Assembly (NCBI GenBank): GCA_020723935.1
Contig: DYHY01000001.1
Location: 4,604 to 51,254 of the forward strand
Source: Candidatus Micrarchaeum sp.
GTDB lineage: Archaea; SpSt-1190; DYHY01
Length of the DNA stretch: 46,651 nt
Reading direction: 5' to 3'
Positions 1,775-46,651 of the stretch are shown piece by piece. The notes beneath the pieces were generated by a model. It did not search any database and was not told the DNA's origin. It saw only the letters and a list, made by a program, of their open reading frames with translations. Every line of letters starts with the position of its first letter. Positions within the stretch are counted from its first letter, which is position 1. Both the position numbers and the translations under genes were made by a program.

Positions 1775-1778
1775 CTCG

Positions 1779-17978: not shown

Positions 17979-18388
17979 CGCCACCCCCGCCGCGACGCGG
18001 GGCGCGCCGACCCAGAGCCACGAGGCTCCGCAGTAAGATTCCCTGCCGTCGTGATTGATCTTGGACATCTCCGGAGTTCCGTCGTAGCCGCCGCGGGTCG
18101 GATATCCCTCCCGCTCGAAGTGCAGCTTCATCAGCTCGAAAATGGCCTGCGCGTCTGAGACTTTCAGCTGGAACGGGAATCCGGCTTCGAGGGCCATGCC
18201 AATGCTGGGAGACGTCCCCAAGACCCGACCGAGACGGTCGCCTTGGGGAAGATTAGGCCGCTTTCGCCCTCGATCCACACCAGCTCCTTGTAAGTTGTAG
18301 AAAATATCCTGTCCGTCCTGAGGGAAGCCATCTGCGCGTCGACGAGGGCGGCGAGCGCGGGCCTCAGCGCGAGCGGCTTCTTTGCCAT
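17840..18388 (-). pseudogene. Unknown soluble protein with a frameshift
   Basis: ATG 18388 opens MAKKPLALRPALAALVDAQM and reads FSTTYKELVWIEGESGLIFP. One G missing from a short G run (about 18225) then changes the frame, and reading continues TSPSIGMALEAGFPFQLKVS, SKINHDGRESYCGASWLWVG and DNQFYFDPERAAEDQPISVR. A TATA-like ATTATTTAAG lies 27 nt upstream of the ATG, so it was once a proper gene. The second frame is open to 17400, but left of about 17880 the other strand reads as methyltransferase C terminus, so the real end is probably near 17850-17900. No family recognised; no membrane segments. Confidence 0.6.
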
Positions 18389-18479
18389 CCGCGGCCGGCC
18401 CGCAGAACGACTTAAATAATTGAGGTCTAATTCACCTTTCCAGAGTAGTCTATCTGGTTTCTTTTTTTCTTCCTTCCTG

Positions 18480-31146: not shown

Positions 31147-31572
31147 ATGGCAGCTCTTGACGATCTTCTTGCTAGGTTCAAGCCAAGGGAGCCGACAATC
31201 CAGCCGACCAACGAGCCCGTCCAGGGGCCGCAGACTCCCGGAGGGCTGGGCGCGCTCCAAGAGGAGAGGCCCACTGTCCCCAAGGTCTTCGGCCAGCAGC
31301 AGCAGCAGCAGCCGATGCAGGACAACTTCCAGTCGACGAGCCCGCACATGGGCCCGACCTTCACGCCCGGCTTCCCGTCGCAGGGCTTCGGTCTCCCCCA
31401 ACAACAACAACAACAACAACAACAGCAGCAGCAATCGTTCTCCGCGGCCGGCGATCTGGGCGAGCGCCTGATGAGGATAGAGGAGAAGCTCAAGATTCTC
31501 TCGGACAAGATAGATCTCATGTCCCAGCAGGTCTCCCTGATATGGGAGATGCAGCGGCGCAAGATGCAGTAA
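31147..31572 (+). CDS. Polyglutamine-containing coiled-coil protein
   Basis: 141 residues. A short helical N terminus (MAALDDLLARFKPREPTIQP) leads into a Pro/Gln-rich disordered region with two glutamine runs of six (31294-31311) and twelve (31399-31434). The C-terminal helix DLGERLMRIEEKLKILSDKI and following heptads (MSQQVSLIWEMQRRK) predict a coiled coil. There is no membrane segment. The architecture (disordered polyQ plus C-terminal coiled coil) suggests a self-assembling adaptor or phase-separating protein. The frame is open and followed 15 nt later by the DUF63 gene, so the two are probably co-transcribed. No family recognised. Confidence 0.8.
   Translation: MAALDDLLARFKPREPTIQPTNEPVQGPQTPGGLGALQEERPTVPKVFGQQQQQQPMQDNFQSTSPHMGPTFTPGFPSQGFGLPQQQQQQQQQQQQSFSAAGDLGERLMRIEEKLKILSDKIDLMSQQVSLIWEMQRRKMQ
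31294..31434 (+). repeat. CAG and CAA trinucleotide repeats
   Basis: (CAG)6 at 31294-31311, and (CAA)8(CAG)3 followed by one CAA at 31399-31434, both in frame and encoding glutamine runs. A related (CAG)6 lies at 29404-29421 in the EamA gene. Confidence 0.9.
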
Positions 31573-31587: not shown

Positions 31588-32367
31588 ATGACGGGGCTTT
31601 CCGGTTTTCTCGACAGGTTCGTGGTCCTCCCGATGAAGGAGGGGACGGGATACAACATCGTCACGACGGCGATGATAGTCGTCCTCCTCGGCCTCGCGGC
31701 CTTCCTCCTGCTGAAAAGCGATTTCGTCAGGAAGAAGAAGCCCCTTTCCCTACTTGGGGACGTCGCGCCCTATTTGGTCTTGGGCGCCGCCGCGCGCTCC
31801 CTTGAGGACGCCTGCGTCTATCCCTGCTCCTGGCCCGCGAAGATCCTCTTCATAACACCGGGGATATGGGCCCTCGTCTTCCTCCTGTTCCTGGGAACCT
31901 CGCATTTCGCCCCCAAGAGGGCGCGCCTCGCCGGCTGGCTGCTTGCGGGCGCGAACGTCGCGATCGTCGCGGCGAGGCTCAAAAACCTCGAGGGGCTGAT
32001 GCTCGTCTTGGGCTTCTTCGTCTTGGGCTTCGCGGCGGTGACGATAATAAGGCAGGTGCTGAGAATGGAGCTGCCCCTCGCCACGTCCCTCGTCCTCGCC
32101 GCCCACGTCTTCGACGCGTCATCCACCCTCGTCGCGGTGAAGTTCTACAGCTATTTCGAGGAGCATGTGGTCGCGCGCGCCGTGATGGGCATCGGCGGCG
32201 CACCGGCGTTCTACCTCGTCAAGATCGCCGGGATGCTCCTGATTCTGGTCCTTTCGGAGAGGGCTGGATTCAGTGAGAGGGAGCGCGCGGTGCTCCTAGC
32301 TGCAATACTTGCGGTGGGCCTCGGGCCCGGCCTGCGAAACACAATGAGCCTTGCTATGGGCGCCTAG
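31588..32367 (+). CDS. DUF63-family archaeal membrane protein
   Basis: 259 residues with about seven or eight hydrophobic helices. Family-typical pieces include the N-terminal PMKEGTGYNIVTTAMIVVLL, a conserved acidic/arginine pair in GAAARSLEDACVYP, the central VLAAHVFDASSTLVAVKFYS and the terminal GLGPGLRNTMSLAMG (GPxxRN). DUF63 is widespread in archaea and its function is unknown. It starts 15 nt after the polyglutamine gene. The ribosome-binding site is weak (GGAAGG), so translation may depend on coupling. Confidence 0.85.
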   Translation: MTGLSGFLDRFVVLPMKEGTGYNIVTTAMIVVLLGLAAFLLLKSDFVRKKKPLSLLGDVAPYLVLGAAARSLEDACVYPCSWPAKILFITPGIWALVFLLFLGTSHFAPKRARLAGWLLAGANVAIVAARLKNLEGLMLVLGFFVLGFAAVTIIRQVLRMELPLATSLVLAAHVFDASSTLVAVKFYSYFEEHVVARAVMGIGGAPAFYLVKIAGMLLILVLSERAGFSERERAVLLAAILAVGLGPGLRNTMSLAMGA

Positions 32368-32423: not shown

Positions 32424-33011
32424 TTATTCGTCCTTCCAGGGGCCGCGCGTCCTGATGAGGTAGTACGCGACACCCACAAGGACTATCGCCGCAAAGAACG
32501 TGAAAAGCCTCGAGAGGAGGACGCTTTCGGGTGGGGAGAGGGTGAGGGGAGCGGTGGAGCTCACAACATAGTCCTTCTTCCCCGCTTCCGTGTTGAAGAA
32601 GAGCTTGAGGTTCCCGGACACCAAGCCCGGCGCCCCGGTCGAGGATTGCGCGGTGGCGACGACGGTGAGGACGTAGGCGCGCCCGTATTCGACGGGTCCG
32701 GCGGGCGCGACGTTCACGCGGAACTTCTCGGACTCGCCGGGCGCTATCGCCGCAGCTGACTTGTCAAGGGTGGCGAAGCCCGCCGCCTCGTCCGAGACCC
32801 TGACGGAGAAGATGGTGTTCTCGTCGCCGTAGTTCGAGACGAGGACGTCTATTGACCCGCCTTCCCTGTTGAGGAAATACTGGCCCGAGGAGGGGGATAT
32901 CGCGAGGCCAACCCTTGCCTGCGCGGGCGCGAAGAGGAGCGCCGCGAGGACGGCGATCACGAGCACCGCTGCGAAGCCTGCTGTCCGGATTTTCGGCCTA
33001 AATGTAACCAT
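32424..33011 (-). CDS. Single-pass surface protein, paralogue A (Ig-like ectodomain)
   Basis: 195 residues from ATG 33011 (TATA 33038-33046, about 30 nt upstream). Signal peptide TAGFAAVLVIAVLAALLFAP ends before QARVGLAISPSSGQYFLNRE. A beta-sandwich ectodomain contains GGSIDVLVSNYGDENTIFSV and APGESEKFRVNVAPAGPVEY. A C-terminal helix (LFTFFAAIVLVGVAYYLI) is followed by RTRGPWKDE. The opening G-x-x-x-SP-x-SG, the GG-x-I-x-x-x-V-x-N strand and the late Y-x-L-x-V strand recur in the genes at 34165, 37564 and 38153, making a four-member local family. The topology resembles WxL-interacting proteins of Gram-positive bacteria, but homology is not established. Confidence 0.8.
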   Translation of the reverse strand: MVTFRPKIRTAGFAAVLVIAVLAALLFAPAQARVGLAISPSSGQYFLNREGGSIDVLVSNYGDENTIFSVRVSDEAAGFATLDKSAAAIAPGESEKFRVNVAPAGPVEYGRAYVLTVVATAQSSTGAPGLVSGNLKLFFNTEAGKKDYVVSSTAPLTLSPPESVLLSRLFTFFAAIVLVGVAYYLIRTRGPWKDE

Positions 33012-33074
33012 ATCGGGTGACCGGGTGGCCCTGCCGGAATATAAACATTTCCCAAAAAGGCGCAGGACCCCTTT

Positions 33075-34196
33075 TCAGAGGCGCCTCGCCTTCCCGCGCA
33101 GGCCGGAGATGATTTCCCGTCTGAGGGCATGGAGGACGAGGACGGCCTTCTCGGGCAGCGTCAGGAGGCGTGTCGGGACGTGGACGCGCGAGGGGTCGCC
33201 CCCCAGCTCCTGCATCGCCTGCCGGGCGATCCATTGCGCCTCCCGGTAATCCCCGTCCGAGAAGGTTGCCTTGGCGAGGGACAGGAGCCCTTGGGAATGC
33301 TGGGCTGCCCGCAGGCGCGTCGTCGTGCGGATCCTCTCCTCGACCGCCGAGAAATGCGCCTTGGTCTCGACGAACTGCTCGGCAAGGGCGTCCCAATCCA
33401 CCTCATCCATCTTGCGGGAGGCGTACCTCTTGGCGGAGAGGAGGATCGCGACGATGATTGTCGCCGGGAGGAGGTAGAGGAAGAGGAGCTCATCTAGCCT
33501 GTCTATCAGGCGCGAGAGGAAGGTGGGCTCGCGCACGGTGATCGGATGGGCGCGCACAGCCGACTTCCCCGCCCCGTCGGAGACCGATATCTCGCAGTCC
33601 CATTTCCCGGGCCTCGCGAGCTTGTCGAAGGATATCCGGGCGCTGAGGCGCGAGGTCTTCGGGTCCCAGACCGGGACGCTGTCGAGGACCTTGAACTGGC
33701 CCGAGACCGAGCACTGCAGGTTCCTGCACGAGAATGTCTCCTTCTCCTTGGGCGCGGCGGCCGAGGTGAAGAGCTCGGCATAGGAGCAGCTCACGTTGCA
33801 GCCGCCCTTCGAGCAAATGTCCTCGGCGCCGTTGGGGTCGAAGATGACGGCGAGGAGGACCGCGTCGCGGCCCACGACCGCGTTCGTTGAGACCACCTCT
33901 ATCACGCGCGGGGGGAGGTTGGTGACCCCGAGGACCGGCGTCGCGCTCGGCAGGCCCCTGTCCTCGGAGACGTTCAGCAGGCCTGAGGACTCCCCCAATA
34001 TGTCGTCGGAGAGCGCCGGGGAGGCCGTGGGGAGGAGCAGGAGAAGGGCTGCGAGGGCGAGGGCGGGGCCCAGGAAAGGAAAAAATGGGGGCGTTTGGCT
34101 CCTTGCGCCCGGCGCTTCCCGCGCATCTCCCCTGCGGCCGTTCAGCCCGCCGCCGCCCTTCTTCCTAGGCCGGCTTTTCCGGGTTCTGCACGACAA
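33075..34196 (-). CDS. Membrane-anchored extracytoplasmic protein with a cytoplasmic helical domain
   Basis: 373 residues. A basic N terminus and signal helix (FLGPALALAALLLLLPTASP) are followed by an ectodomain of about 200 residues. It has paired cysteines (EDICSKGGCNVSCSYAELF, FSCRNLQCSVSGQF) and an Ig-like strand pattern ending RPGKWDCEISVSDGAGKSAV. A membrane helix (LFLYLLPATIIVAILLS) near residue 245 leads to a helical cytoplasmic domain of about 120 residues (DEVDWDALAEQFVETKAHFS onward). The start overlaps the preceding gene by 32 nt; a shorter start is possible. Unlike its neighbours it has a sizeable cytoplasmic part, so it could connect the surface proteins to the cell interior. 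Confidence 0.78.
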   Translation of the reverse strand: MSCRTRKSRPRKKGGGGLNGRRGDAREAPGARSQTPPFFPFLGPALALAALLLLLPTASPALSDDILGESSGLLNVSEDRGLPSATPVLGVTNLPPRVIEVVSTNAVVGRDAVLLAVIFDPNGAEDICSKGGCNVSCSYAELFTSAAAPKEKETFSCRNLQCSVSGQFKVLDSVPVWDPKTSRLSARISFDKLARPGKWDCEISVSDGAGKSAVRAHPITVREPTFLSRLIDRLDELLFLYLLPATIIVAILLSAKRYASRKMDEVDWDALAEQFVETKAHFSAVEERIRTTTRLRAAQHSQGLLSLAKATFSDGDYREAQWIARQAMQELGGDPSRVHVPTRLLTLPEKAVLVLHALRREIISGLRGKARRL

Positions 34197-34833
34197 TTTC
34201 TTCCTCTTCCTTCTCTTTCTTGCGCCTCTTCGCTATGAAGAAGAAGAGCCCCGCGAGGAGCAATATTATCAGCAGGATTGCCAGGATTAAAGGGAGGTAG
34301 TTGGGCTTCCTGTTGAGCTCCGCCTGGCGCTGCCTTGTCGCCTCCTCGTCGAAGCCCCCGTAGTTCACCGTCATCCCTTTGTTCTCGAAGACAACGTAGA
34401 AGCTCGCGTCGCTAGCCTCCTTGCCCCCGGCGCCGATGCCCGTCCCGGCCTCGGCCCCGCCGGCGTCCATGACCCGCAGCCCTATCACGTATTTCCTGCC
34501 GTATTCCACAGTGTTGTCCGGGACTATCTGCGCGTAGAATGTCTTGAAATCCCTGGCTTTGATCGTGACCAGGGGGTCCGGGATTATCTTCTTCACGAAC
34601 TTGTTCCCGTCCGCCGCGGCGCCCCCGAAGGTCGTGACCTCGAAGGTCCTCGCCTCGGTGTTGCTGTTCCCCACGACGAACTGGATCGTGCCGCCCTGTC
34701 GGGTTATTGTGTAGGTGCCGGATGCAGGCGACAAGCTCATGCCCGCGAAGGCGGGAGAAGTGGCGACGACGACCGCCAGGACTAGCGCCGCCAGAAGGGC
34801 GAGCAGGGGCTTTTTATCCATCCGTTCAGACAT
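34165..34833 (-). CDS. Single-pass surface protein, paralogue B
   Basis: 222 residues from ATG 34833; ATG 34821 (MDKKPLLALL) is equally possible, since a TATA-like TGATAAATA (34851-34859) lies 22-34 nt away. Signal peptide LLALLAALVLAVVVATSPAF is followed by GMSLSPASGTYTITRQGGTI, the same opening as paralogue A. The ectodomain contains VEYGRKYVIGLRVMDAGG. A glycine-rich loop and a C-terminal helix (YLPLILAILLIILLLAGLFF) precede a highly charged tail (AKRRKKEKEEEEIVVQ). It lies 60 nt after the 34894-37446 gene on the same strand and overlaps the next gene. Confidence 0.8.
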   Translation of the reverse strand: MSERMDKKPLLALLAALVLAVVVATSPAFAGMSLSPASGTYTITRQGGTIQFVVGNSNTEARTFEVTTFGGAAADGNKFVKKIIPDPLVTIKARDFKTFYAQIVPDNTVEYGRKYVIGLRVMDAGGAEAGTGIGAGGKEASDASFYVVFENKGMTVNYGGFDEEATRQRQAELNRKPNYLPLILAILLIILLLAGLFFFIAKRRKKEKEEEEIVVQNPEKPA

Positions 34834-34893
34834 CCTTTCAGAACCACCGTTATTTATCATTTCCTTCCGCCCCCTTGCATTTGCCATGGCAGC

Positions 34894-37446
34894 CTAGGAG
34901 CCTCCGTCGGTGCAAAGCGCGCCGCTCCTCAGGCATTTCCCGTCGACGAACGAGGTGTTGTAGTTGCCCATCGGGGTCCCGACCGGTATCGCGAGGCCTG
35001 CCGAAGAGTAGTGCCTCAGGTCGTTGGGGTAGTTGGCTATCGCGTCCTGGCACATCAGGGGCGAGCCGCCCAGGAACCTGTAGGTGTTGTTGAGGGGCCT
35101 GCAACCGTTGGACGTGCAGTCGGGGAAGGCCGATGTCGAGAGGTTCACCGAGAAGTTCCCGACTAGTATCAGCGTCGACCCGTCAGTCCCCTTGGTGAAG
35201 TTGTTGCCAAGATACCTCACATACTGGCAGGAGTTGCCCTTGTGCCTGTATTCGACGTAGTTCCCGCCGGAATAGGTGGACTGGTAGGTGGCGCCAGGCG
35301 AGCCCGAGAAGGCGTACGTTATGTAGTCGTGGTAGACGCTGCTCGAGTCGTAGTCGTCCGCGGCGAGGAGCTCGTTGACGTTGAAGTTGTTCTTGATGGC
35401 GGTCCAGGCGTAGCTGTTGTTGTTGTCGTTGACCCTCATTATGCACGACCAGGTGCCGTTCATCGTCTCGGACTCGAAGGCTGGGTTGAGGCTCAGAACC
35501 CTCGTGCCGTTGCCCCCGCCCGAGCATCCCGAGAACGCGCCAAGGTTGTCGGCTGTGGCGGCGGTGTAGTTCCTGACCGTGAAGTTCCACCATGCGTCGG
35601 AGACGCCCGTGGACGTGTTGGTGTCCGCGCCGTTCCCCTGCCAGCAGTGGACCTGGCAGCCGTTGGAGCCGCAGCTAGCCGTGTTGACATCGTCGTAGCC
35701 GTTCTTGTCGCGGTACGTCATGTTGAGCTTCTTCACGGCGGCCGCGGTCCCGGGGCCCGTCCAGACAAGCGTAATTGTGTCGCTGCCGTCGCTTGCCGAG
35801 ATGCCGGCCGTCACGACGGGCTGCGAGTTCGTCAGGACCTGCTGCAGCTGCGCCACCGGCGCGCCGCTAGTCTTGTTCTGGGCGAACTGGTTCGTGGCGT
35901 TCACTATGCACTGCCACGTGCCCTCGCTGTTGCGGCAGGGGCCCGCGTCGGTCGTTCCGCTCGTGTCTATCAGGAAGTTCGCCGAGCAGTTCTTGCCCGT
36001 GCTCCAGGCGGCCCCGACGCAGGAGCCGCTGACGTTCGCGCTCGTGTTGTCGTAGCTCGTGATGCTGCCGTTGGGCCCGTAGAGTATGAACCTGACGTCT
36101 GTGACAGCGTTGTCCGGGCTCTTGATGACGGCCGAGCAGTTCACCTTGTCGCCCACCTCGAAGACCCCTCCGACGTAGACGTCGGCGAGGGTCTGCTTGC
36201 CGAACGTGTAGTTAGTGAACGTTATGCCGTGGTCGACGTAGTAGTGGATGTTGACGGCGGCCGAGTTGTCGGTCGGCAGGCCGTAGCGGTCCCAGACGAA
36301 GGCGTAGACTGAGTTGTCGGCCGCGTCCCCCGCGCCGGTCAGGTAGTTGCAGGTGGCGTTAGCCACCGGGGGGGCGTTGACGCTCGAGCACAGGGTCGTA
36401 GCAGTACAGCCCGTGGGCGTCGCGGAGGCCGTCGAGCAGATGCGCATTATCGAGGGGGATGCGGTGTCGTCCTCGGCGTCCGCCCAGGTGACGTTGAACC
36501 TGACGTATTGGCCCTCGGTCGTCGGGGCCGCGGTGGTGCTGTTGACCCACGCCGTGGTCACCGTGGGCCTGGCGTTCGTTATGTTGAAGGTCGTCACGTA
36601 GACTGTTGAGTTCGCGTTGCCAGAGCCCGCAGTCAGGGACGTGCCGTCGTTTTCGTATATCCTGACGTAGTAGCGCGTCCTGGACGCCGTGGTGTTGTTG
36701 CTGTTCTCCCCGGGGCCGTACATGTCGGCAGAGGTGAGCGAATATGGAGTCGTGACGGTCGTGTTGGCGAGGACGTTGCCTGCGCCCGCGCTCGTCCCGA
36801 CGAACATCCTGTGCGTCAGGGCGTCCGTGTCAGGGTCGCTCCCGTACGTCCAGGAGACTGTCGCGTCGTTGCCGTGGTAGATGATCGTCTCGGAGACGTT
36901 GAGGGCGCTGGGCGCGGTAGGCTGGCTGTTGTAGATCGTCAGGTTCAGCGCGAGGGGGAAAGTCATGTTGAAGGTCTGCGCCGCGCCGGAGGAGTCGTTC
37001 GAATACATGCAGAAATAGTAGGACTTTGTGTTGTTCGCGCCGCCGGACGCGGAATAGGTGAAGGTTGGGACGAGGGGCGTGCCGCTCCCTATTGTCATTG
37101 TGAAGGAGCTGTTCTGAGCTGCGAAGGCTGTGCCTGAGGTCCCCACCCAGTCCTGGCCGGTGAGGGCGCACCAGTTCGCAGAGTTCGTCGTCACGTTCAC
37201 GGTCGTGTTGACGGTATCGCCGTTGTTGTCTATGCCGCGGTAGAGGGCGATCGAAGGGGTAGTGGAGTGCACGAAGGTGTTGTTGATGTTGACGCCGTTC
37301 TTGACCGGCTGGTAGGGCAGGACGTTAGTCACGCTCGCCGTCGCGTTCACGACCTCCGCGAACGCCGGCCCCGCCATGGCGAGGACGACTCCGACAAACA
37401 GAACCGCCGCGAAAACACCGATCTTCCTGGAATCCACTTTGGCCAT
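34894..37446 (-). CDS. Large secreted, N-glycosylation-rich beta protein
   Basis: 850 residues from ATG 37446 (MAKVDSRKIGVFAAVLFVGV). This start is preferred to one at 37524 because of a GGGGTGA ribosome-binding site and the TATA box at 37495-37502. The signal peptide ends AMAGPAFAEVV. The mature part is Thr/Ser/Asn-rich with dozens of N-x-S/T sequons and repeated fibronectin-like pieces (APSALNVSETIIYHGNDATV, RPTVTTAWVNSTTAAPTTEG). Scattered cysteine pairs suggest disulphides (GSNGCQVHCWQGNG, SGSCVGAAWSTGKNCSANF). There is no C-terminal membrane helix; it ends RSGALCTDGGS. Likely a cell-surface protein held by partners such as the anchored paralogues alongside. Family not recognised beyond beta-sandwich repeats. 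Confidence 0.82.
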   Translation of the reverse strand: MAKVDSRKIGVFAAVLFVGVVLAMAGPAFAEVVNATASVTNVLPYQPVKNGVNINNTFVHSTTPSIALYRGIDNNGDTVNTTVNVTTNSANWCALTGQDWVGTSGTAFAAQNSSFTMTIGSGTPLVPTFTYSASGGANNTKSYYFCMYSNDSSGAAQTFNMTFPLALNLTIYNSQPTAPSALNVSETIIYHGNDATVSWTYGSDPDTDALTHRMFVGTSAGAGNVLANTTVTTPYSLTSADMYGPGENSNNTTASRTRYYVRIYENDGTSLTAGSGNANSTVYVTTFNITNARPTVTTAWVNSTTAAPTTEGQYVRFNVTWADAEDDTASPSIMRICSTASATPTGCTATTLCSSVNAPPVANATCNYLTGAGDAADNSVYAFVWDRYGLPTDNSAAVNIHYYVDHGITFTNYTFGKQTLADVYVGGVFEVGDKVNCSAVIKSPDNAVTDVRFILYGPNGSITSYDNTSANVSGSCVGAAWSTGKNCSANFLIDTSGTTDAGPCRNSEGTWQCIVNATNQFAQNKTSGAPVAQLQQVLTNSQPVVTAGISASDGSDTITLVWTGPGTAAAVKKLNMTYRDKNGYDDVNTASCGSNGCQVHCWQGNGADTNTSTGVSDAWWNFTVRNYTAATADNLGAFSGCSGGGNGTRVLSLNPAFESETMNGTWSCIMRVNDNNNSYAWTAIKNNFNVNELLAADDYDSSSVYHDYITYAFSGSPGATYQSTYSGGNYVEYRHKGNSCQYVRYLGNNFTKGTDGSTLILVGNFSVNLSTSAFPDCTSNGCRPLNNTYRFLGGSPLMCQDAIANYPNDLRHYSSAGLAIPVGTPMGNYNTSFVDGKCLRSGALCTDGGS

Positions 37447-37494
37447 TTTTGCGCATTCACCCCTGGTCTTCTTTCTGATAGTATCTGAAATGTC

Positions 37495-37502
37495 CTTATA
37501 AG
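37495..37502 (-). promoter_or_regulatory. TATA box of the 34894-37446 gene
   Basis: Minus-strand CTTATAAG, about 50 nt before the ATG. A second TATA-like CTTTTATATG lies at 37522-37531. Unlike most neighbours this gene has a leader and a ribosome-binding site. Confidence 0.5.
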
Positions 37503-37538
37503 GGGTGTTCGCCCTTGGAGGCATATAAAAGTATTTCC

Positions 37539-37548
37539 AAAAAAAAAA
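37539..37548 (-). terminator. T10 terminator of the giant-protein operon
   Basis: A run of ten T on the minus strand begins about 15 nt after the stop of the 37564-38151 gene, a strong archaeal-type U-tract terminator. It separates the upstream operon from the gene at 37446. Confidence 0.7.
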
Positions 37549-37563
37549 GTCATCTTGAGGGTG

Positions 37564-38151
37564 TTACTTCTTGGAAGACGCAAGAACCATTATTGTGGCT
37601 ATAACGGAGAGCACCAGGATGGAGACGCCGCCTATCAGGACCGTGACGGGTGTGAAGAAGGACGGAAGGGAGACTCCGGCAAAGGGAGTGGTCTTTACCT
37701 GGGTCGTGTTCCCTGTCCCGAACCTCACAGTGTAGGCCGATATAAGAACCTGCTGGAAGCCCGCTCCACCCGAGCCCGAGGAGGAAGCCTGGCCGCCCGC
37801 GGAGGAATCGCTCCTCAGCAAGAGCTCCAGGGAATAGGTGTCCCCGTCCTTGGTCCCGCGCGGCGGGGTGATTGTCACCGTTATCGTCTTGTAGGAGCTT
37901 GGATTGACTGTGAAGGCGGGCGAATCGACCTTCGAGAAGCCTGCGGCCGAGCCCGAGACCGAGATCCTGAAGGCTGCCGGAGCCCCGTCTGAATTGTCCA
38001 CGGAGACATTGAATGTGCCCGGCTTGTCGACGGGGATGTGGAAGGTGCCTCCGGAAGGGGAGATACCGTAGCCGGCGAGGGCCGGCGAGGCAATGAGGCC
38101 TGCGGCAAGGACGAGGATCGCTGCGGAAACGAGGAAAGCGGGGATGCGCAT
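37564..38151 (-). CDS. Single-pass surface protein, paralogue C
   Basis: 195 residues. Signal peptide AFLVSAAILVLAAGLIASPA is followed by GYGISPSGGTFHIPVDKPGT, then a beta ectodomain (FNVSVDNSDGAPAAFRISVS, SYKTITVTITPPRGTKDGDT). The segment GGAGFQQVLISAYTVRFGTG is nearly the same as GGAGFEQKLVSTYTIRFAAP in paralogue D. A C-terminal helix (VTVLIGGVSILVLSVIATIM) ends in a short SSKK tail. The start codon is 1 nt after the stop of paralogue D. It is the last gene of the operon beginning with the giant protein, with the T10 terminator immediately downstream. Confidence 0.83.
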   Translation of the reverse strand: MRIPAFLVSAAILVLAAGLIASPALAGYGISPSGGTFHIPVDKPGTFNVSVDNSDGAPAAFRISVSGSAAGFSKVDSPAFTVNPSSYKTITVTITPPRGTKDGDTYSLELLLRSDSSAGGQASSSGSGGAGFQQVLISAYTVRFGTGNTTQVKTTPFAGVSLPSFFTPVTVLIGGVSILVLSVIATIMVLASSKK

Positions 38152-38152
38152 C

Positions 38153-38845
38153 TTAAACCTTCTTTCTCCCCGAGCGGCGGTCCGCCGGAAGCCGTTTCCT
38201 CTTCGCGCCCGTCGCGGCCCGCGCCTTCTTTGCGCCGGCCGAGGGTGCCGGAACGGGCGCGGCCTTTTTCTTCCCTGCCCAGCCCATCAAGAACGCCGTG
38301 CAGGCTATCGCGAGGAGGATTGCCGCGGCTCCGCCGGCGAGGGCCAGGCTCCCATTCCCGGGAGCCGCCTGGGGCGGGAGGGCCGCCGCGGGCCCGACCT
38401 TCTCGGGGGCCGGGGGGGCCGCGAAGCGTATCGTGTAGGTGGAGACCAGCTTCTGCTCGAAGCCCGCTCCTCCGGCTTGGAGCGTTCCGGAACTTGCGTC
38501 CGTCGAGACAGTCACTATTAGGAAATAATTCTTGGCGGGGTCGGGGCTCTGCGGGGGGCTCACGCGCACGAGGAGGTCCTTGTAGGAATTGGGCTGCAGG
38601 ACGATCTTCTGTGAATCCATCGAGACGAGCGGCAGGGCGTCCCCGGAAAGGTCCAAGTGGAAGGTCAGCGGGGTCTTCTCCGTGTTGTCCAGCTGGAAGG
38701 CGATCGTGCCCCCTGAGGAGGGCGGGAACACGAAGGCGGAGGCTTCCGAGGAGATCCCGTAGCCGGCGAGGGCCGGCCTCATGGCCGCGAGCAGGAGGAG
38801 GAAAAGGCAGGCTGCGGGAAGCTTCCAGGCGCTCTTCGTTTCCAT
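38153..38845 (-). CDS. Single-pass surface protein, paralogue D
   Basis: 230 residues. Signal peptide LPAACLFLLLLAAMRPALAG leads to GYGISSEASAFVFPPSSGGT. Ectodomain strands include IAFQLDNTEKTPLTFHLDLS, SYKDLLVRVSPPQSPDPAKN and FLIVTVSTDASSGTLQAGGA. A Pro/Ala-rich stalk precedes the helix LALAGGAAAILLAIACTAFL and a long, strongly basic C-terminal tail (KKARAATGAKRKRLPADRRS). It starts 16 nt after the stop of the 2555-residue protein. Together with paralogue C it looks like a membrane partner for that protein. The basic cytoplasmic tail could bind DNA, acidic lipids or a cytoplasmic partner; unknown. Confidence 0.82.
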   Translation of the reverse strand: METKSAWKLPAACLFLLLLAAMRPALAGYGISSEASAFVFPPSSGGTIAFQLDNTEKTPLTFHLDLSGDALPLVSMDSQKIVLQPNSYKDLLVRVSPPQSPDPAKNYFLIVTVSTDASSGTLQAGGAGFEQKLVSTYTIRFAAPPAPEKVGPAAALPPQAAPGNGSLALAGGAAAILLAIACTAFLMGWAGKKKAAPVPAPSAGAKKARAATGAKRKRLPADRRSGRKKV

Positions 38846-38861
38846 CTTGTCCTAGGTTCTC

Positions 38862-38966
38862 CTACGGGGCCAGTGCTCCGGTGTCCGTCTCCCAGATCGT
38901 GAAGTTCGTGTAATACGTGCCGGCCTTCGTCCCCGCGGGGAGGGAGAGGCAGAGGTAGAGGCTCGC
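38862..38966. repeat. Direct repeat shared with 46545-46651
   Basis: About 105 nt at the 3' end of the 2555-residue gene recur at the right edge with about seven substitutions and one 4-nt insertion. This is a gene-level tandem duplication, not a mobile element: no transposase or terminal inverted repeats are visible. Confidence 0.85.
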
Positions 38967-41900
38967 GTTCGCGGGGTTCGGGAAGGTGCCCCTGGAGAGG
39001 AGCCCGCCGATCTTCTGCGTGGCGGACGTCACGAAAGAGCTCTGCGGGCAGGCCGCGGTGCCGAAGGTGGTTGTCTCGTTTATTAGGAATGTGTTGGGCG
39101 AGGGCTCGGGGAGCTGCGTCCAGTTGAGGCGCGACTGGTTTATCCACAGCTGCCTGTCGTAGTTTGAGCCGGTCGTTAGGTTGAGGACCTCAATCGCCGG
39201 CTGGCCAGGGTAGCAGGTGGATGAGATGTTGGAGGTCCCCGGGAGGCCCGAGAAGGCGCAGCTTCCGGAGGGCTGGCCGAGGGCTCCCTGCCTGATGTTG
39301 AACGCGAAGCTCAGCAAGCCGGTCGTGTTGGAATGGCCCGCCTTGTCCCTGAACCTCGCGCGGCAGTTCCAGGTGCCGTTTATCGAGTAGACGTAGGGCG
39401 TGAGCATCGCGGAGATGTTGAGATAGATGCCCTGGCCGGGCGTCCTGTTCGCGAGGCTCGCGTTGAGGTTGTCCCAGCTGTGGAGCCCGCCCTCGTTGGA
39501 TGCCGCAGTCGACCAGCAAGTCACGTTGCACTTGGCGTACGTTCCGTCGCAGTCCAGGTCCGATCCGCCGTCGTGGTCGAAGATCGTGAGGTTCATTGGG
39601 AACTGGAAGGCGGGGTTGATGTTGTTGCCGCCGTTGATCGTCGCGACCGTGTCGTTGGACTGGGGGGTCGCGCCCATGCCGGTGACGTTGACGCCCTCCA
39701 GCACTATCACGTCGTCGTACGTCACGTTCTCCCCTGCGGCTGCGGGCGTCCTCACGAAAGTCTGGACGCCGTAGCCGTTGCAGGCGGGATTGAACGTTGC
39801 AACCAGCGAATACCTCGCGTAGGAGGCCGTGAGCGTCGGGTTCATGTACAGATTGTATACGACGGTTCCGTTGCATCTCAATCCCAGGGAAGGGACCTGC
39901 ACGGGCGAGGTCGCCTTGGCATAGGTGGAGAAATAGAAGGTCTTGCCCCCGAGCGTGTAACCCCGGTTGTAGAAGCTTGACGCCGCGAGGGTCGATTGGG
40001 CACCGTACAGCTTCAAGGAGTAGAGACCGCTGTAGAGATCCGTGACGGCCCAGTGGTTGTTGCCGCCGAAGCTCCAGCCGGTGAAAGTGTCGTTCGCTGA
40101 ATCGCCGGCGGATCCGGTGAATGATTCGAACCCGGCGTTCGAGGCTATCGACTCGTTGTTCCCCGCCGCGTCTTCCGCCATCGAGAGGATGGTGGCCATG
40201 CCTGTTATCGCCGGAGCGCCGTAGGTCCAGGAGCCCGAACCGGTCGCGACGTCCCAGGTCTCTCCGCCGTCGTAGGAGACCCAGACGCGGGTCAGGCCCG
40301 AGCCGCCGGTATCGGAGGCTGTTCCGCTTATTGTGAAGGCGTCAGTCACCTGCTGCCCCTCGGTGGGCGAGGAAATGGAGCTTGTCGGGCCGGTCGAATC
40401 AACCCTTGTTATTCCGGCCGACGTGTAGTTGGTTGAGTTGCCCGCGCCGTTCACGGCCTGGAGAGTATAGTTGTAGCAGTAGCCACCAGAGACGGGGTCT
40501 CCGTAGTCGGCACCTATGTTGGTCGCGACGACCGTCCAGGCGCCGTATGATCCGCACGAGCCGGCTGCCAGGGCGGCACTCTGGCGCCAGAGCCTTGTGA
40601 GCGAGATCGCGCTCTCGGCGTCCGTGCCGTTCGCGATCGCAAGGTGTATCGTCGTCCCGCGGAAGTAGCCGTCGGGGTAGCTGATGGAGCCTCCGACCGG
40701 GTTGGTCGTGTCAACCTTGCACTCCGAGTAGGCCGAGTAGTTCGTGAGCCCGGCGTTGTTGTCGTTCCTTATCGCGTAGCGGTAGCAGTTGCCGCTCGTC
40801 CTGCCGCCATCGCTGAAGGGCGTCGGGGGGTTCGTCCAGATCTGGGAGTCGGCGCCGTAGCTGCCGCAGGACCCGGCGGTGAGGGTCGCCGCCCCGCGCA
40901 TCATGTACGCGACGGCGATCCCCGACTGCGCGTCGGTCCCGTTCGTGTAAGTCATGCCGCCGCAGGTGGTCGTGTAGGTGTAGTACGCCGCCGGGGCGAT
41001 GGTGCCCATGCTTGAGGCGTTCACGTCGACCTTGGCGATGTTTGTCGTGTTGTACTGGCTCGAGAGGCCGGCCCTGTCATAGGTGAAGAGCGTGTAGTTG
41101 TAGCAATAGCCGCCCGCGGCCGTGCCGTCGTTGTAGGATGATCCGGGGTTCGTCGCGACGAGCTGGTGCGCCGGGTTGAAGGCCCCGCACGCGCCTGCAG
41201 AGAGCGTCGCGTTCTGGCGCCAGATGCTCGTGTTGGCGACGCCCGAGCCCGAGTCAGTGCCGTTGACAATGGAGGATATCGTCAGGGGGAGGCCGACGAC
41301 GTAGCCGTTCGTGTAGGAGAGCGAGCCAGTGGTCGGCGGCGTGTTGTCTATCACGACGAGCTTAGTGTTGTTGTAGTGGAGCGTGGCGTTGTAGTAGAGG
41401 TACTTTATCTCGGCCTGGGAGAGGGCGCGACTGTAAAGGCGCAGGTCGTCCACCGAGGCGTTGAGGGGGAGGTCGTAGGTCGTGCTGGCGCTCTGGCGGT
41501 TGCCTATTGTGAACTCGTGGGCGTTCGCAGTCAGGGAGGCAGGCAAGCCCGTGCAGTTGGCGATGGACGTGCCGTTGGAATAGAGGCGCACCGTCCCGGT
41601 CGGGCCGTTGTAGGTGGCCGCGAGGAACTGCCAGGTGTTCCTCTTGCCCGCCACCCAGTTGGAGGATGTGCAGGTGTAGAGCACCGCGCTTATCCAGGCG
41701 TAGAAGCGTGTGTCGTTGCTGTTGGTGCCGAGGAAATCCCAGGCATAGGACTCGCCGCCGCCGTTGCCCTTGGCGAAGATGGCCGCTCCGTTCAGCTGGT
41801 CGTTCTTCCCCAAATTCACCCAGGCCGTCGCGGTCATGGCCCCGGTAAAGTCCAGGGAGTTCTTGTCCGTGACGTTGATGTAGGACCCTGCCGTCCCAGT

Positions 41901-44900
41901 GAAGTCGGCCGCGGCCCCGGTGTAGCCGGTGGCGTCCCAGCCCATCCCGCCGGTGATAGTCCCGTTGTTCGTCGAGTTCATTGTGAGGTCGTTTGCCTTT
42001 GTCCCGGCCCCCTCGTTGAAGTTCATGTAGAGGACCTCGCTGGAGTTCGTCGTGAGGTAGCTCTCCTCGGCGTTGATGGCGTTGTCGAAGCCCGTCGCGG
42101 AGAGGGTGCAGGGGCCGTCCAGGCGCGTCCGGGAATCGAAGTTGTAGGTCCAGGTGCTCGTGCCGACGGCGGAATTGACCTGGCCGCAGGTGTAGATGGT
42201 GACGTTCTTGATGCCGCTCCCGCCGGTGTCGTTCGTGGTCCCGGCCAGCTGCACCGTCCCGCTGACGTAGGCGTTCTGCGACGGGGAGCTTATAGTCGTG
42301 TTGGGGGCCGCCCAGTCGTACGCGCAGACGCTCAAGGCGTTGCACCAGAAGTTGTTGGTTGTGTAGCTCGTCGCGTCGATCGAGCAGCGGGAGTTCGTGT
42401 AGCCCGAGCAGGACGCGCGGCAGGTTCCGGCGACGCACGTGCCGCTCGTGCAGTCCGCGCCGGCCGTGCACGCCTGGCCGTCGGAGCAGAGCGTCTTGCA
42501 AGCCGCCGTGCCCGAATACGAGCCGGCGTTGAACGCAATGTCCCTGTTCTGGACCTGGAAGTTGTATGTCGTGCAGCTCGAAAGGCCCGTCATGTTGTAG
42601 CTTGCCGCGCTAAACCAGGGAGAATCGGCCACCTGCAATGCAGACTCGTGGATCCTGGATGGGAGGAGATCCAGGCCCGTCGTCGACTTGCCGATCCTGA
42701 CCATGTCCCATTCCACGTTGTCGTAGTTGACGCCGCCCGTCGAAAGGTCGCCGTAGAGGTAGACGCAGAAGTTGCTGCCGTTCGTGGGCCACTGGTCAGA
42801 ATCCATGAAAAGTGAGATGCGCGCCGGCTCCCAGTTGCCCGTGCAGGCGAAGGACGCGCTCGTCGTCCACTTGCCGTAGTTGACAGAGTCCCCGAAGAAG
42901 ATGTGGGCGGATCCCGAGCCGGAGGGGCACTTGTACATGAAGCTGGCTGTGTAGTTCCTCGGCGTCGTGTAGGAGCCGTACGCCTTGCACTGCCAGATGC
43001 CCGACCAGGAGCCGCCGTTGTATTTGAGGTAGGCGCCCTTGTAGCCGTTGAGGTATCCGCTAACAGGCGTCGTGTTGATGGAACCGTAGGTGCCAAAGCC
43101 CGACCAGGAGGCATTCCCCCGCTCGAAGCCGCCGTTGGAAAGGTAATTGGCTCTGTTCCCGGCGTCGTCGTAGGAGGTCGGGATGAAGAAGTAGTCTGTC
43201 CCCCGGTCCTCCCCGTTGGACCAGCCGCCTATTGAGCATGAGGTGGCCGTCTTGCTCTGTAGCGAGGGGGACGTGGGGGCTGCCGGGCCCGCATAGTCAA
43301 GGGCGTCGATGTCCAACACGGAGTTCGACGACGAGAGCGGCGTCACGCGCAGGTTGTCTATGTAGTACGTCGCGTCGTTCGTCGCGTAGCCGTAGTTTGC
43401 GAAGAATATGTACTTGAGGTTGGTGGCCTCGTTCCCCGTCCAGGGCTCCATCCCGGTCTCGGAGAGAAGGATGTCGTTGAGGTAGTGCTTCACGCGCCTG
43501 TCGTTGAAGTCAAGGATCATGCTGAAGTGGTATGTCTGGCCGGCCGTGAGTATCGGTGTTGAAGGTGTGTAGTATTCCCAGGCGTCGTTCTGGAGGAGGT
43601 TCCAATTGCCCGCCCCGGAGCTTGCGCTCCACACGGAATACAGGTTCCTCGTCGAGTCCAGCAGGCGCACGGCCAGGTTCCAGCTGTTTGCCCCTGACCA
43701 GACGATGTCGTATTCCACCTTGACCCTCCCCGACACCGGGGAGGCCAGGGTGAAGCGCGCGTATTCGTTGGATTCGGTGACCGCCGTACCCGGGAGGTAG
43801 AACTTGAAGCGGTTCTGGTCTATCGTGAAGGTGGAGCCGTTGCCGTTCGTGTATTTCGTCCAGCCGGAGAGGGTTGTGATGTCCGCCCCCTGCGTTCCCG
43901 TGAAATTCTCATAGTCTCCGCCGGTCGGGATGTAGGTGCCCGCGGCAGTCGTGCTCCTGAGGAGCGCATACTTGTTCGTCGTGAACGTCGTAGCTATGCT
44001 GTTGAGCTCGTCCATCTGCCAGCCGTAGTTACCGTCCAGGAGGCCGTACGCCGTTATCAGGCCGGACTTCGGGAACTCGGGCCAGAAGTTCTTGAATGCC
44101 GCCTCGGCGGAGGTCGAGGGGCTGATAGCGTTAGCGAACCTCAGGAGCGGCGCGTCCCAGCCGTAGGTGCCGTTCATGTGCAGCTCCGTCCAATACTCCG
44201 AGCCGGCCGAGGACATTCCGTACTTGGCGCCAAGCTGCGTGAGCGCGAAGCCGCCGCCTGTTGTGAAGTTCCAGTCCGTCCCGACGCGGAAAATTGTCTT
44301 GTGGCCCAGGGCGCCCCAGTTGAGGGACTCCTGCGTGCCGTTGTTCCTGCCCCGGTACCAGAAGCCAGGGGTGGAGGGGGCCACGAGGAGGCCGCCCGAA
44401 TCCACATACTGGCGCACGATTGATCCCGAACTCGGGTTGGTCTGGGTGTGTATCGTGTCCGGGACCGAGTACCCGTCCGTCATTATCACGACCGTCCCGG
44501 TCGCGTTGTTGAGCGTGATGTGGTTCTGCATCCACGTCGCGAGGGTGTCGGCGTTCTTCTCGGTGAACCCCTTGTTCACGAAATAGGTGCGCGCGACGGC
44601 GGGGTTCGAGAACCCAGGTTTCGGGTAGCGGGCGTCGTAGTAGATGATCTTGTCCGGGTCTGTGAAGTTCACCGTCACGGAGGCCCCGCTCGTGACCGTG
44701 CCGGTAGGCTGGCTGGGCGGGTCCCTGTCTGGGGTGACGAAATTGGCGTCCTGCATGTCTGCTATGACCTCCTGCTGGTTGAGGGGCCGATCGTAGATGT
44801 GGACGTTGTCTAGGATTATGCCCGCCGCTCTGCCCCAACTGAAGGCGCCCAGGTAGAACGGGCCCGCTCCGCTGCTCATCGTCGCCGGCGCCGCGGCCGT

Positions 44901-46529
44901 TCCGACGAACGCGCCGTCGATGTAGGCAGTCGCGGTAGTTCCGCTCTTTGCGACCGCGACGTGATACCAGCGTTTGAGGGCAAAGGCAGTGTTCTCCCCG
45001 CCCGGCCCGAGGCAGGAGAATCCGAGGTTCCCGGGGTCGAACTTCCAGTGGAAGCACTGCGTCGTCGTGTGCACCCATATTCCCGGCGACCGCTCGCCCG
45101 TCCCGTTCGTCTTGGCGAGGACCCTCCTCCACAAGCCGTCCGGTGCGTCGGTCATGTAGAACCAGAAGGAGACAGTGTGGTCGTTCAGCGAGTTGAACGT
45201 GGGGGTGGCTATGGAAACATTGTTGGTCGAGGCGCGGTTGAATACCATCCCGCTGTTGAAGCCCCTCTGGTCGACTGACCACTCCGCCCCGGACAAGAAG
45301 CCCAGGTTGCCCGCGGTGCCAGTCGCATCAAGCGTGTAGTTTCCGAGGTCCGTGTCTATGGGGGGGCCAGATTTCTCGTCGAAGGGGTAGTTGAGGACCA
45401 TCCTGGGGGTGTCCTGGCGCGCGCAGATCGTCGGCGACCAGACGCTGTATTTGGTCCCGTCCTCTTTCTGGACGCGCACGTGGTAGCAGTATTTCTCGTT
45501 GTCGATTAGGTTGTCGTGCGTGTAGGTCGCCGAGCTCCCCTGCGAGAGAAACGCCGTGGAGGGGTTGGTCTGCTCCATGAGGTATTCGTAGCCTTCCGGG
45601 AGGAAGCCGGTCCAGGCGATGCTGTTCTTCCTCAATCTCGAGTCCAGGGCCTTGTCGGAGGATGAGGTCGCGTACATGATGGTGGGCGCTCCTAAGGCCG
45701 TGCAGATGTAGTTCGGGCAATACTGGCTCACCACGCAGTCCGCGTCGATACAGCAGGCCCGGTAGCCGGGGTTGAGCGCGGCGTTGTTCGTGCGGTAGGT
45801 GGTCGGGGCGTTGGCGTCGTAGCAGCGGATGTAGACTATCTTCGCGCCGTAGCCGGTGGAGAGGTTCCATGACTGGTTAGCGCAGGCGTAGGAGCCGGCG
45901 GTGCAGCCGGAGGCGCAGCACTGGAAGGAGCCGCCCCAGACCGTGCCGTCGTTCGAGAGCTGGCAGCTTATCGGGTTCGCGCCCCCGGTGTTGGAGCCCG
46001 GGGTGGTTATTCCGCTGACCGTGATCAGCTGGGCGATCGTGCAGCTGGGGACCGTTAGCGTTGGCGTGCCGGCGAGAAGGGTGCCAGCGGTGAGGCGCGG
46101 CTTTGCGAAGATGAGCTCGAAGAACACGAAGATTATGGCCGCGACTATTATCGCGACGTCTGCGTTCCTCCTCACTATCCTGCCGGCCCTCGCGCCCTGC
46201 CTCTTGATTTTCTCGCGGCCATTCTTGGGGAGGCTGAAATAACCGAGTGTGAGGAGGGCGCCCGCTAGGATGAGGATTGCTGCTATCCCTGGAAGGGGCT
46301 TTCCCGCTGTGGCGGAGGGGCTTGAAGCGAAGGAGGGGAAAAGCGCGAGGAGCGGGACAGCCGCAATCAGTGAAAAAAGTGGCAGAAGGGCAGGCCTACG
46401 CTTCGCGTGAAGCCGTCTTCGCTGTCCCACAAGGCAGTCTTGAAACGGCCCCTTTTTTAGTCTTTTCCTTCGGGAAGCGCGCTCCTGTTGGAAAGCCATC
46501 CTAGGAAGCCCGGGCCGGCGAGGCTCCAT
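38862..46529 (-). CDS. Giant (2555-residue) LamG-containing cell-surface protein
   Basis: An intact frame of 7.7 kb. A basic N terminus is followed by three hydrophobic segments (near residues 48-70, 78-98 and 123-140; for example VAIIVAAIIFVFFELIFA). The outside part, in order: a Cys-rich region (SFQCCASGCTAGSYACANQS, YRACCIDADCVVSQYCPNYI); a fibronectin-like module; a LamG/concanavalin-like domain near residues 380-590 (MVLNYPFDEKSGPP to LDNVHIYDRPLNQQEVIADM); a central region with lectin-like jelly rolls; a Dickkopf-like Cys cluster (QACTAGADCTSGTCVAGTC) near residue 1340; a second LamG near residues 1460-1640; about three tandem modules of roughly 100 residues with paired cysteines near 1690-2060; and Ig-like modules. 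There is no C-terminal anchor. Start ATG 46529 is tentative (46499 is possible). Probably an adhesin or glycan-binding surface fibre. Confidence 0.88.
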   Translation of the reverse strand: MEPRRPGLPRMAFQQERASRRKRLKKGPFQDCLVGQRRRLHAKRRPALLPLFSLIAAVPLLALFPSFASSPSATAGKPLPGIAAILILAGALLTLGYFSLPKNGREKIKRQGARAGRIVRRNADVAIIVAAIIFVFFELIFAKPRLTAGTLLAGTPTLTVPSCTIAQLITVSGITTPGSNTGGANPISCQLSNDGTVWGGSFQCCASGCTAGSYACANQSWNLSTGYGAKIVYIRCYDANAPTTYRTNNAALNPGYRACCIDADCVVSQYCPNYICTALGAPTIMYATSSSDKALDSRLRKNSIAWTGFLPEGYEYLMEQTNPSTAFLSQGSSATYTHDNLIDNEKYCYHVRVQKEDGTKYSVWSPTICARQDTPRMVLNYPFDEKSGPPIDTDLGNYTLDATGTAGNLGFLSGAEWSVDQRGFNSGMVFNRASTNNVSIATPTFNSLNDHTVSFWFYMTDAPDGLWRRVLAKTNGTGERSPGIWVHTTTQCFHWKFDPGNLGFSCLGPGGENTAFALKRWYHVAVAKSGTTATAYIDGAFVGTAAAPATMSSGAGPFYLGAFSWGRAAGIILDNVHIYDRPLNQQEVIADMQDANFVTPDRDPPSQPTGTVTSGASVTVNFTDPDKIIYYDARYPKPGFSNPAVARTYFVNKGFTEKNADTLATWMQNHITLNNATGTVVIMTDGYSVPDTIHTQTNPSSGSIVRQYVDSGGLLVAPSTPGFWYRGRNNGTQESLNWGALGHKTIFRVGTDWNFTTGGGFALTQLGAKYGMSSAGSEYWTELHMNGTYGWDAPLLRFANAISPSTSAEAAFKNFWPEFPKSGLITAYGLLDGNYGWQMDELNSIATTFTTNKYALLRSTTAAGTYIPTGGDYENFTGTQGADITTLSGWTKYTNGNGSTFTIDQNRFKFYLPGTAVTESNEYARFTLASPVSGRVKVEYDIVWSGANSWNLAVRLLDSTRNLYSVWSASSGAGNWNLLQNDAWEYYTPSTPILTAGQTYHFSMILDFNDRRVKHYLNDILLSETGMEPWTGNEATNLKYIFFANYGYATNDATYYIDNLRVTPLSSSNSVLDIDALDYAGPAAPTSPSLQSKTATSCSIGGWSNGEDRGTDYFFIPTSYDDAGNRANYLSNGGFERGNASWSGFGTYGSINTTPVSGYLNGYKGAYLKYNGGSWSGIWQCKAYGSYTTPRNYTASFMYKCPSGSGSAHIFFGDSVNYGKWTTSASFACTGNWEPARISLFMDSDQWPTNGSNFCVYLYGDLSTGGVNYDNVEWDMVRIGKSTTGLDLLPSRIHESALQVADSPWFSAASYNMTGLSSCTTYNFQVQNRDIAFNAGSYSGTAACKTLCSDGQACTAGADCTSGTCVAGTCRASCSGYTNSRCSIDATSYTTNNFWCNALSVCAYDWAAPNTTISSPSQNAYVSGTVQLAGTTNDTGGSGIKNVTIYTCGQVNSAVGTSTWTYNFDSRTRLDGPCTLSATGFDNAINAEESYLTTNSSEVLYMNFNEGAGTKANDLTMNSTNNGTITGGMGWDATGYTGAAADFTGTAGSYINVTDKNSLDFTGAMTATAWVNLGKNDQLNGAAIFAKGNGGGESYAWDFLGTNSNDTRFYAWISAVLYTCTSSNWVAGKRNTWQFLAATYNGPTGTVRLYSNGTSIANCTGLPASLTANAHEFTIGNRQSASTTYDLPLNASVDDLRLYSRALSQAEIKYLYYNATLHYNNTKLVVIDNTPPTTGSLSYTNGYVVGLPLTISSIVNGTDSGSGVANTSIWRQNATLSAGACGAFNPAHQLVATNPGSSYNDGTAAGGYCYNYTLFTYDRAGLSSQYNTTNIAKVDVNASSMGTIAPAAYYTYTTTCGGMTYTNGTDAQSGIAVAYMMRGAATLTAGSCGSYGADSQIWTNPPTPFSDGGRTSGNCYRYAIRNDNNAGLTNYSAYSECKVDTTNPVGGSISYPDGYFRGTTIHLAIANGTDAESAISLTRLWRQSAALAAGSCGSYGAWTVVATNIGADYGDPVSGGYCYNYTLQAVNGAGNSTNYTSAGITRVDSTGPTSSISSPTEGQQVTDAFTISGTASDTGGSGLTRVWVSYDGGETWDVATGSGSWTYGAPAITGMATILSMAEDAAGNNESIASNAGFESFTGSAGDSANDTFTGWSFGGNNHWAVTDLYSGLYSLKLYGAQSTLAASSFYNRGYTLGGKTFYFSTYAKATSPVQVPSLGLRCNGTVVYNLYMNPTLTASYARYSLVATFNPACNGYGVQTFVRTPAAAGENVTYDDVIVLEGVNVTGMGATPQSNDTVATINGGNNINPAFQFPMNLTIFDHDGGSDLDCDGTYAKCNVTCWSTAASNEGGLHSWDNLNASLANRTPGQGIYLNISAMLTPYVYSINGTWNCRARFRDKAGHSNTTGLLSFAFNIRQGALGQPSGSCAFSGLPGTSNISSTCYPGQPAIEVLNLTTGSNYDRQLWINQSRLNWTQLPEPSPNTFLINETTTFGTAACPQSSFVTSATQKIGGLLSRGTFPNPANASLYLCLSLPAGTKAGTYYTNFTIWETDTGALAP

Positions 46530-46544
46530 GCTACCGCAGCCTTG

Positions 46545-46651
46545 TTACAGGGCCAGTTCTCCGGTATCCGTCTCCCAGATCGTGAAGTTTGTGTAATATG
46601 TGCCGGCCTTCCTTCGTCCCCGCGGGGAGGGAGAGGCAGAGGTAGAGGCTC
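46545..46651 (-). CDS. 3' end of a second giant surface-protein gene (partial, frame-disturbed)
   Basis: The last 107 nt of the window are nearly identical to the 3' end of the 38862-46529 gene. YYTNFTIWETDTGELAL and a stop at 46545 match YYTNFTIWETDTGALAP there. Relative to that copy there is a 4-nt duplication (AAGG, near 46608-46616) that changes frame after LSLPAGTK. In the shifted frame the first stop is TAG at 46533-46531, 1 nt before the ATG of the next gene. Other differences are mostly at third positions. This shows a tandem array of giant proteins extending beyond the window. Confidence 0.75.
   Translation of the reverse strand, partial: ASTSASPSPRGRRKAGTYYTNFTIWETDTGELAL

Follow-up and report, generated by a model that had tools for sequence, protein, structure and literature searches.

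The stretch of DNA that we analyzed (the window; 46,651 nucleotides) comes from an archaeal genome of 1.14 Mb that is assembled in 47 contigs and 91% complete. The original prediction of a one-strand cluster of surface proteins was borne out: seven genes lie on the minus strand between positions 32424 and 46529. Proceeding from right to left, GIANT (38862 to 46529; 2,555 codons) encodes a surface protein; IG2 (38153 to 38845; 230 aa) a protein with a signal peptide, a PapD-like domain, a transmembrane helix, and a long basic tail; IG1 (37564 to 38151; 195 aa) a protein with a signal peptide, a PapD-like domain (residues 27 to 145), and a transmembrane helix (168 to 194); SEQ (34894 to 37524; 876 codons) a sequon-rich protein with a signal peptide and without a transmembrane anchor; IG3 (34165 to 34887; 240 codons) a protein with a signal peptide, a PapD-like domain, a transmembrane helix, and a charged tail; REC (33075 to 34196; 373 codons) a protein with an Ig-like domain (~94 to 225), a transmembrane helix (233 to 257), and a cytoplasmic helical domain of ~115 aa, in line with the receptor-like protein that had been predicted; and IG4 (32424 to 33011; 195 aa) a protein with a signal peptide, a PapD-like domain, and a transmembrane helix. 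GIANT and IG2 are separated by 16 nt, IG2 and IG1 by 1 nt, and SEQ and IG3 by 6 nt, and the start of REC overlaps the end of IG3. The 39-nt intergenic gap between IG1 and SEQ (37525 to 37563, minus strand) contains a T10 run and a BRE/TATA-like stretch (TTTTTTTTTTGGAAATACTTTTAT), both read by eye, and is probably the end of one transcription unit and the start of the next; a further BRE/TATA-like stretch, also recognized by eye, lies ahead of IG4. Each large secreted protein (GIANT, SEQ) has two IG genes close behind it.

Downstream of the cluster, the plus strand of the window (31147 to 31572) encodes a 141-residue protein with a run of ~12 glutamines and another short run, which adjoins a gene for a DUF63 membrane protein (31588 to 32367). 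At the far end of the window (2 to 3269), RNA polymerase subunit B is apparently split into a 496-codon frame carrying Rpb2 domains 1 to 3 (1779 to 3269), followed by a separate frame (2 to 1774). Directly upstream of the cluster and on the same strand (L005 778 to 5224) are genes for two radical SAM proteins and for a polytopic membrane protein that matches no Pfam family, possibly surface-glycan genes. A further run of secreted, sequon-rich, Ig-like surface proteins is encoded on the same strand ~15 to 19 kb upstream of GIANT (L005 ~14931 to 19101; contig ~65830 to 70000).

At the right edge, two giants in tandem had originally been predicted, the second of them entering from outside the window, yet a second giant is absent from the assembly. 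The window ends in a 10-N scaffold gap (contig ~51255 to 51264), and the sequence running into it (46530 to 46651, minus strand) is a second copy of the GIANT tail, 94% identical to the first over 106 nt, with its frame broken by a 4-nt insertion. Past the gap (L005 366 to ~640), 33 nt identical to the GIANT tail are followed by the 5' half of a fifth IG paralogue containing an in-frame TAG, and this broken gene is followed in turn by one for an unrelated membrane protein. We rejected a full second giant because the assembly has only the frameshifted tail copy of it at the scaffold gap; what is found there is either a unit that decayed after duplication or a false join at a repeat.

GIANT contains two LamG domains (Laminin_G_3) and two Big_7 domains. 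The Laminin_G_3 match (PF13385), in two stretches, reaches 138.9 bits against a curated cutoff of 27.6, which places GIANT among LamG surface proteins, and we found no match to an ATPase or propeller domain in it. Its C-terminal part consists of a Cys-rich Ig-like domain (~2297 to 2426) followed by a tail domain (~2427 to 2555). SEQ ends in the same way: its residues 567 to 876 are homologous to GIANT 2297 to 2555, the last ~260 residues being 29% identical, and a comparison of the seven proteins, run with no composition correction, gave an E of ~1e-10. The Cys-rich Ig-like domain is common to GIANT (2297 to 2426), SEQ (567 to 720), and REC (94 to 225), and a structure model of the GIANT/SEQ tail reached a pLDDT of 35. 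Sequons number 38 in SEQ versus 17 in shuffled sequences (shuffle maximum, 31) and 60 in GIANT versus 36 (shuffle maximum, 51). Both proteins are probably N-glycosylated, and the genome encodes two STT3/AglB-type oligosaccharyltransferases. The SEQ product probably starts at Met27 of the 876 codons, matching the sequon-rich protein of 850 residues that had been predicted; its signal peptide looks cleavable, and the protein lacks an anchor.

The N terminus of GIANT is more complex. Hydrophobic segments occupy codons 45 to 72, 74 to 102, and 117 to 148, with basic stretches ahead of the first segment and between the second and third. Because codon statistics indicate that codons 1 to ~45 look noncoding and codons 61 to 118 look coding, with strong coding composition past the first codons, the start is probably either GTG34, which would retain three membrane segments, or GTG119, which would leave one signal sequence. 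The element CTAAAAAAGGGGCCG plus TTTC occurs twice (L005 233 to 790), once ahead of the broken fifth IG and once inside the 5' GIANT frame at codons ~23 to 28; its presence at both places is compatible with a regulatory element and with translation of GIANT beginning farther downstream. The earlier claim that the giants lack a C-terminal anchor holds, but GIANT may not be free of anchors, given up to three N-terminal hydrophobic segments. As judged from these segments, GIANT may be membrane-bound via its own N terminus, in which case an anchor partner would be unnecessary.

The small IG proteins had been described as four single-pass proteins of one architecture, and they are indeed true paralogues, with pairwise BLAST E values of 2e-29 (IG1/IG2), 7e-14 (IG1/IG3), 7e-13 (IG3/IG4), 2e-10 (IG1/IG4), 3e-7 (IG2/IG4), and 1e-6 (IG2/IG3). 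All four have a signal peptide followed by a single beta-sandwich domain and a single C-terminal helix, and most end in a charged tail. The opening motif ascribed to all four is present as GxxISPxxG in IG1 and IG4 and as GxxLSPxxG in IG3, but IG2 deviates from it (GYGISSEAS). Rather than the two or three beta strands first suggested, the domain is predicted to be a complete sandwich with roughly eight strands, according to a structure model of IG1 in which the domain has a pLDDT of 80 to 93 (block means of 82 to 93 from residue 31 to 110) and a low-confidence Gly/Ser-rich loop (118 to 132) precedes the last strand and then the membrane helix. The best structural matches of this model were MSP/VAP domains, FaeE, FimC, Caf1M, CsuC, and the ASH domain of CEP192. 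Many members of the PapD-like superfamily were matched with E values of 1e-7 to 1e-5, at moderate TM-scores (best about 0.6 by target length). Thus, the modeled IG1 ectodomain matches the PapD-like superfamily, with PapD/MSP topology; for IG2 to IG4, which share the domain by homology, the same fold is inferred from that relationship to IG1.

Profile searches of the genome revealed that the cluster is unique within it. The IG profile retrieved IG1 to IG4 and the broken fifth copy and nothing more, and the Cys-rich, tail, and IG domains are, within this genome, confined to the cluster. No orthologous locus was found in nine relatives of the same phylum, none of which yielded a full-strength match to any of these domains. 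Since the parts are confined to the cluster and absent from the nine relatives, they appear to belong together as a single lineage-specific device.

We propose that this device is a fiber-plus-anchor adhesion apparatus in which GIANT and SEQ are the fibers and the IGs their membrane anchors or caps, a reading to which we assign a probability of about one-half. GIANT and SEQ would each consist of a long series of beta-sandwich domains (LamG, Ig-like), probably N-glycosylated, that reaches outward and binds partner surfaces or glycans, both ending in the common C-terminal module; the single-pass IGs would hold or cap this module at the membrane with their extracellular PapD/MSP-fold domain, perhaps by beta-strand donation, as PapD-type chaperones do; and each fiber gene would have its own pair of IG genes behind it. 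REC, with the Cys-rich domain of the fibers outside and a helical domain inside, may sense or tether the assembly. We infer IG-fiber binding, strand donation, adhesion, and signaling; strand donation in particular is a guess that draws on the PapD-like fold and on the proposal of strand donation for DUF916 and WxL (PMC10599100). In small-genome archaea, pairing of a fiber with an anchor would be a concrete mechanism for attaching surface proteins of great size, which are believed to establish contact with partners.

The IGs could instead be membrane-bound secretion or assembly chaperones that serve export quality control of GIANT and SEQ and are not permanent anchors, the fibers being held by the GIANT N terminus or by a surface coat. 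Periplasmic chaperones are among the nearest solved folds of IG1, whose Gly/Ser-rich loop (118 to 132) before the last strand is likewise found in chaperones of the PapD fold, and the N-terminal hydrophobic segments of GIANT could hold that protein. However, a structural role better accounts for the lasting membrane helix and for four paralogues being intact, and SEQ, given its cleavable-looking signal peptide, would be left without an anchor of its own. We consider a chaperone role unlikely.

Gene neighborhoods in other archaea bear on the proposed pairing of fibers and anchors. Of 279 genomes from another archaeal phylum, 100 contain PapD-like domains that the IG-ectodomain profile detected, often inside unrelated multidomain proteins. 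From these we defined an anchor family, A6, of ~400 residues (signal peptide, PapD-like domain, two further Ig-like domains, and membrane helix); its members had initially been collected by means of the IG profile, and the A6 alignment does not contain the IGs. Secreted proteins encoded directly upstream of A6 genes have a common C-terminal domain, A7, which no Pfam family matches. Across 119 genomes of that phylum, 76 of the 106 strong A6 hits have an A7 protein encoded immediately upstream, on the same strand and within 1.5 kb (about 0.16 expected), a count that includes about six seed loci picked for showing the pairing and therefore not independent; none of the 106 anchors has an A7 gene close by on the opposite strand. 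By this gene-order evidence, the A6/A7 pairing in that phylum is strongly supported. The open frame of the upstream A7 partner ranges from 170 to 9180 residues (the longest being G170:C28), and among the A7 proteins listed with at least 2,000 residues, 13 of 14 have an anchor directly downstream. Typically, such a locus reads large partner, anchor, small partner, anchor, and small signal-peptide protein, and several loci add a single-pass protein with cytoplasmic helices, as in REC. This parts list is close to that of the window cluster. The A6/A7 pairing is a larger finding than the one originally made in the window and is worth a study of its own.

The order of secreted protein and anchor recurs in another phylum (76 of 106); the locus itself occurs in none of the nine relatives. 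The pairing had been said to lose support if the paralogues occur routinely without the giant proteins. This is in part the case, as similar domains are also present without giants, mostly beside small secreted partners or in other surface proteins. One could take GIANT and SEQ as ordinary surface glycoproteins that act as adhesins or in the coat, and the IGs as independent single-pass members of a common archaeal pool of Ig/NEW3-like domains, with no one-to-one partnership. The IGs, however, are found nowhere else in the genome and lie 1 to 16 nt behind the fiber genes, and the same pairing is seen at 76 of 106 anchors elsewhere, so that we hold independence to be improbable, even with PapD-like domains in 100 of the 279 genomes of the other phylum, often in unrelated multidomain proteins, and with the operons of LamG surface proteins known in nanohaloarchaea (PMC10266531).

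Least credible is a decaying, recently expanded family in which most copies may be redundant or nonfunctional and the pairs reflect repeated tandem duplication of a fiber-plus-IG unit: the frameshifted tail copy and the broken fifth IG at the right edge would suit it, but these lie next to a scaffold gap and possibly result from misassembly, long open frames are preserved in all seven intact genes (with strong coding composition in GIANT past its first codons), and duplication of a unit is no argument against the unit working as a pair. The anchor-plus-fiber pairs of the original prediction draw support from the shared PapD-like domain, the gene order, the uniqueness within the genome, and the recurrence at 76 of 106 anchors; against them stand the absence of a second giant, the possible self-anchoring of GIANT, and tails that match neither A7 nor WxL.

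We then compared the window cluster with the A6/A7 system by means of profiles. The IGs matched A6 at 97.5%, over the first A6 domain only, and the A6 profile recovered four of the five IG sequences from the window genome (E of 2e-10 to 6e-4). A specific kinship with A6 was weakened by a control, in which nonanchor multidomain archaeal PapD-like proteins matched the IGs equally well (97.4%), and the IGs do not have the A6 architecture of a PapD-like domain plus two further Ig-like domains in ~400 aa. Membership of the GIANT and SEQ tails in A7 was not supported, as hmmsearch returned no hit between them and hhalign gave 16%, with only the last ~33 residues aligned. The cluster is possibly a far-diverged relative of the A6/A7 system.

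Among known systems, the chaperones of chaperone-usher pili resemble IG1 in predicted fold and in the long loop before the last strand. They are, however, soluble, periplasmic, two-domain proteins that work with an usher, whereas the IGs have a single domain and a membrane helix and are encoded in a cluster in which we saw no usher. The window resembles the giant and LamG surface proteins of DPANN archaea (SPEARE proteins and LamG operons of nanohaloarchaea; PMC6642349, PMC10266531) in its very large Ig/LamG proteins, several of which are encoded per operon in a small genome. Paired PapD-like proteins, candidate anchors in the window, are not described in the sections of these papers that we consulted, and GIANT differs in having no ATPase or propeller match. 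The TasA/TapA filaments and archaeal threads or bundling pili (PMC10151520, PMC9715654) are reported to consist of beta-sandwich surface proteins whose fold is completed by a strand donated by a partner or neighbor, which offers an idea of how an IG might hold a tail; they are polymers of small subunits, whereas GIANT is a single long polypeptide, and the window proteins had no sequence match to these families.

The closest comparison is with the WxL/WxLIP systems of Gram-positive bacteria (DUF916-DUF3324; PMC10599100, PMC9772566). These likewise pair a large secreted multidomain protein bearing a C-terminal module with a membrane-anchored Ig-like/PapD-like protein, which has a signal peptide and a C-terminal helix and is encoded directly downstream. 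WxL has been described as exclusively bacterial (PMC9772566), and archaeal systems of the WxL type did not come up in a limited search of the literature, by which absence is not provable. For comparison we used eight WxLIP proteins and their WxL neighbors from plasmids of lactic acid bacteria, found via an approximate consensus query and represented in all comparisons by database sequences only; these plasmid loci show the same order of partner and anchor. WxLIP matched A6 by profile with 97 to 98% probability; with the signal peptide and helix removed, the value was 97.2% (E of 4e-11) over both Ig-like domains, versus 1.2% and 43% for two other archaeal PapD-like families used as controls, and Pfam WxLIP_HBD matched five of nine A6 members (best E, 2.5e-6). 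Thus, the archaeal A6 anchors resemble WxLIP specifically. In contrast, A7 versus WxL gave 0.3%.

The window proteins share part of this likeness. As in WxLIP, the IGs have a signal peptide, an Ig-like/PapD-like ectodomain, and a C-terminal membrane helix, and as in WxL clusters, the gene for a secreted partner lies upstream of and adjoining that for an anchor (GIANT-IG2, 16 nt; SEQ-IG3, 6 nt). The IG versus WxLIP profile comparison gave 45% (controls, 0.1 to 1.2%). WxLIP proteins have two ectodomains, whereas the IGs have one and hence not the second, DUF3324/WxLIP_HBD domain (PF11797). Searches of Pfam and NCBIfam found no match to WxL, DUF916, or DUF3324 in the window proteins, and DUF916/WxLIP_PGBD (PF06030) had no match at its curated threshold in IG1 to IG4 or in the whole genome; the IGs were accordingly rejected as WxLIP members. 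Nor are the GIANT and SEQ tails WxL domains: a profile match of 0.2 to 0.3% rules this out, and the two W-x-L motifs are absent from both ends. The WxL/WxLIP analogy of the original prediction is therefore sustained for gene order, topology, and predicted fold, but not for family matches, the tails matching neither WxL nor A7. Because the IG match is not specific to anchors and the tails belong to neither family, we regard the window cluster as a functional parallel of WxL/WxLIP and not as a member, the likeness extending to predicted fold, membrane topology, order of the genes, and set of parts. A bolder reading, which we offer only tentatively, is that the window holds a far-diverged member of an undescribed archaeal system present in at least two phyla, in which PapD-fold anchors related to WxLIP would hold the C-terminal module of giant fibers by strand complementation, a counterpart of WxL/WxLIP perhaps with common ancestry of the anchors. 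Taken with the A6 results, these comparisons suggest that a system described as restricted to bacteria has archaeal relatives on its anchor side, which work with a different fiber module.
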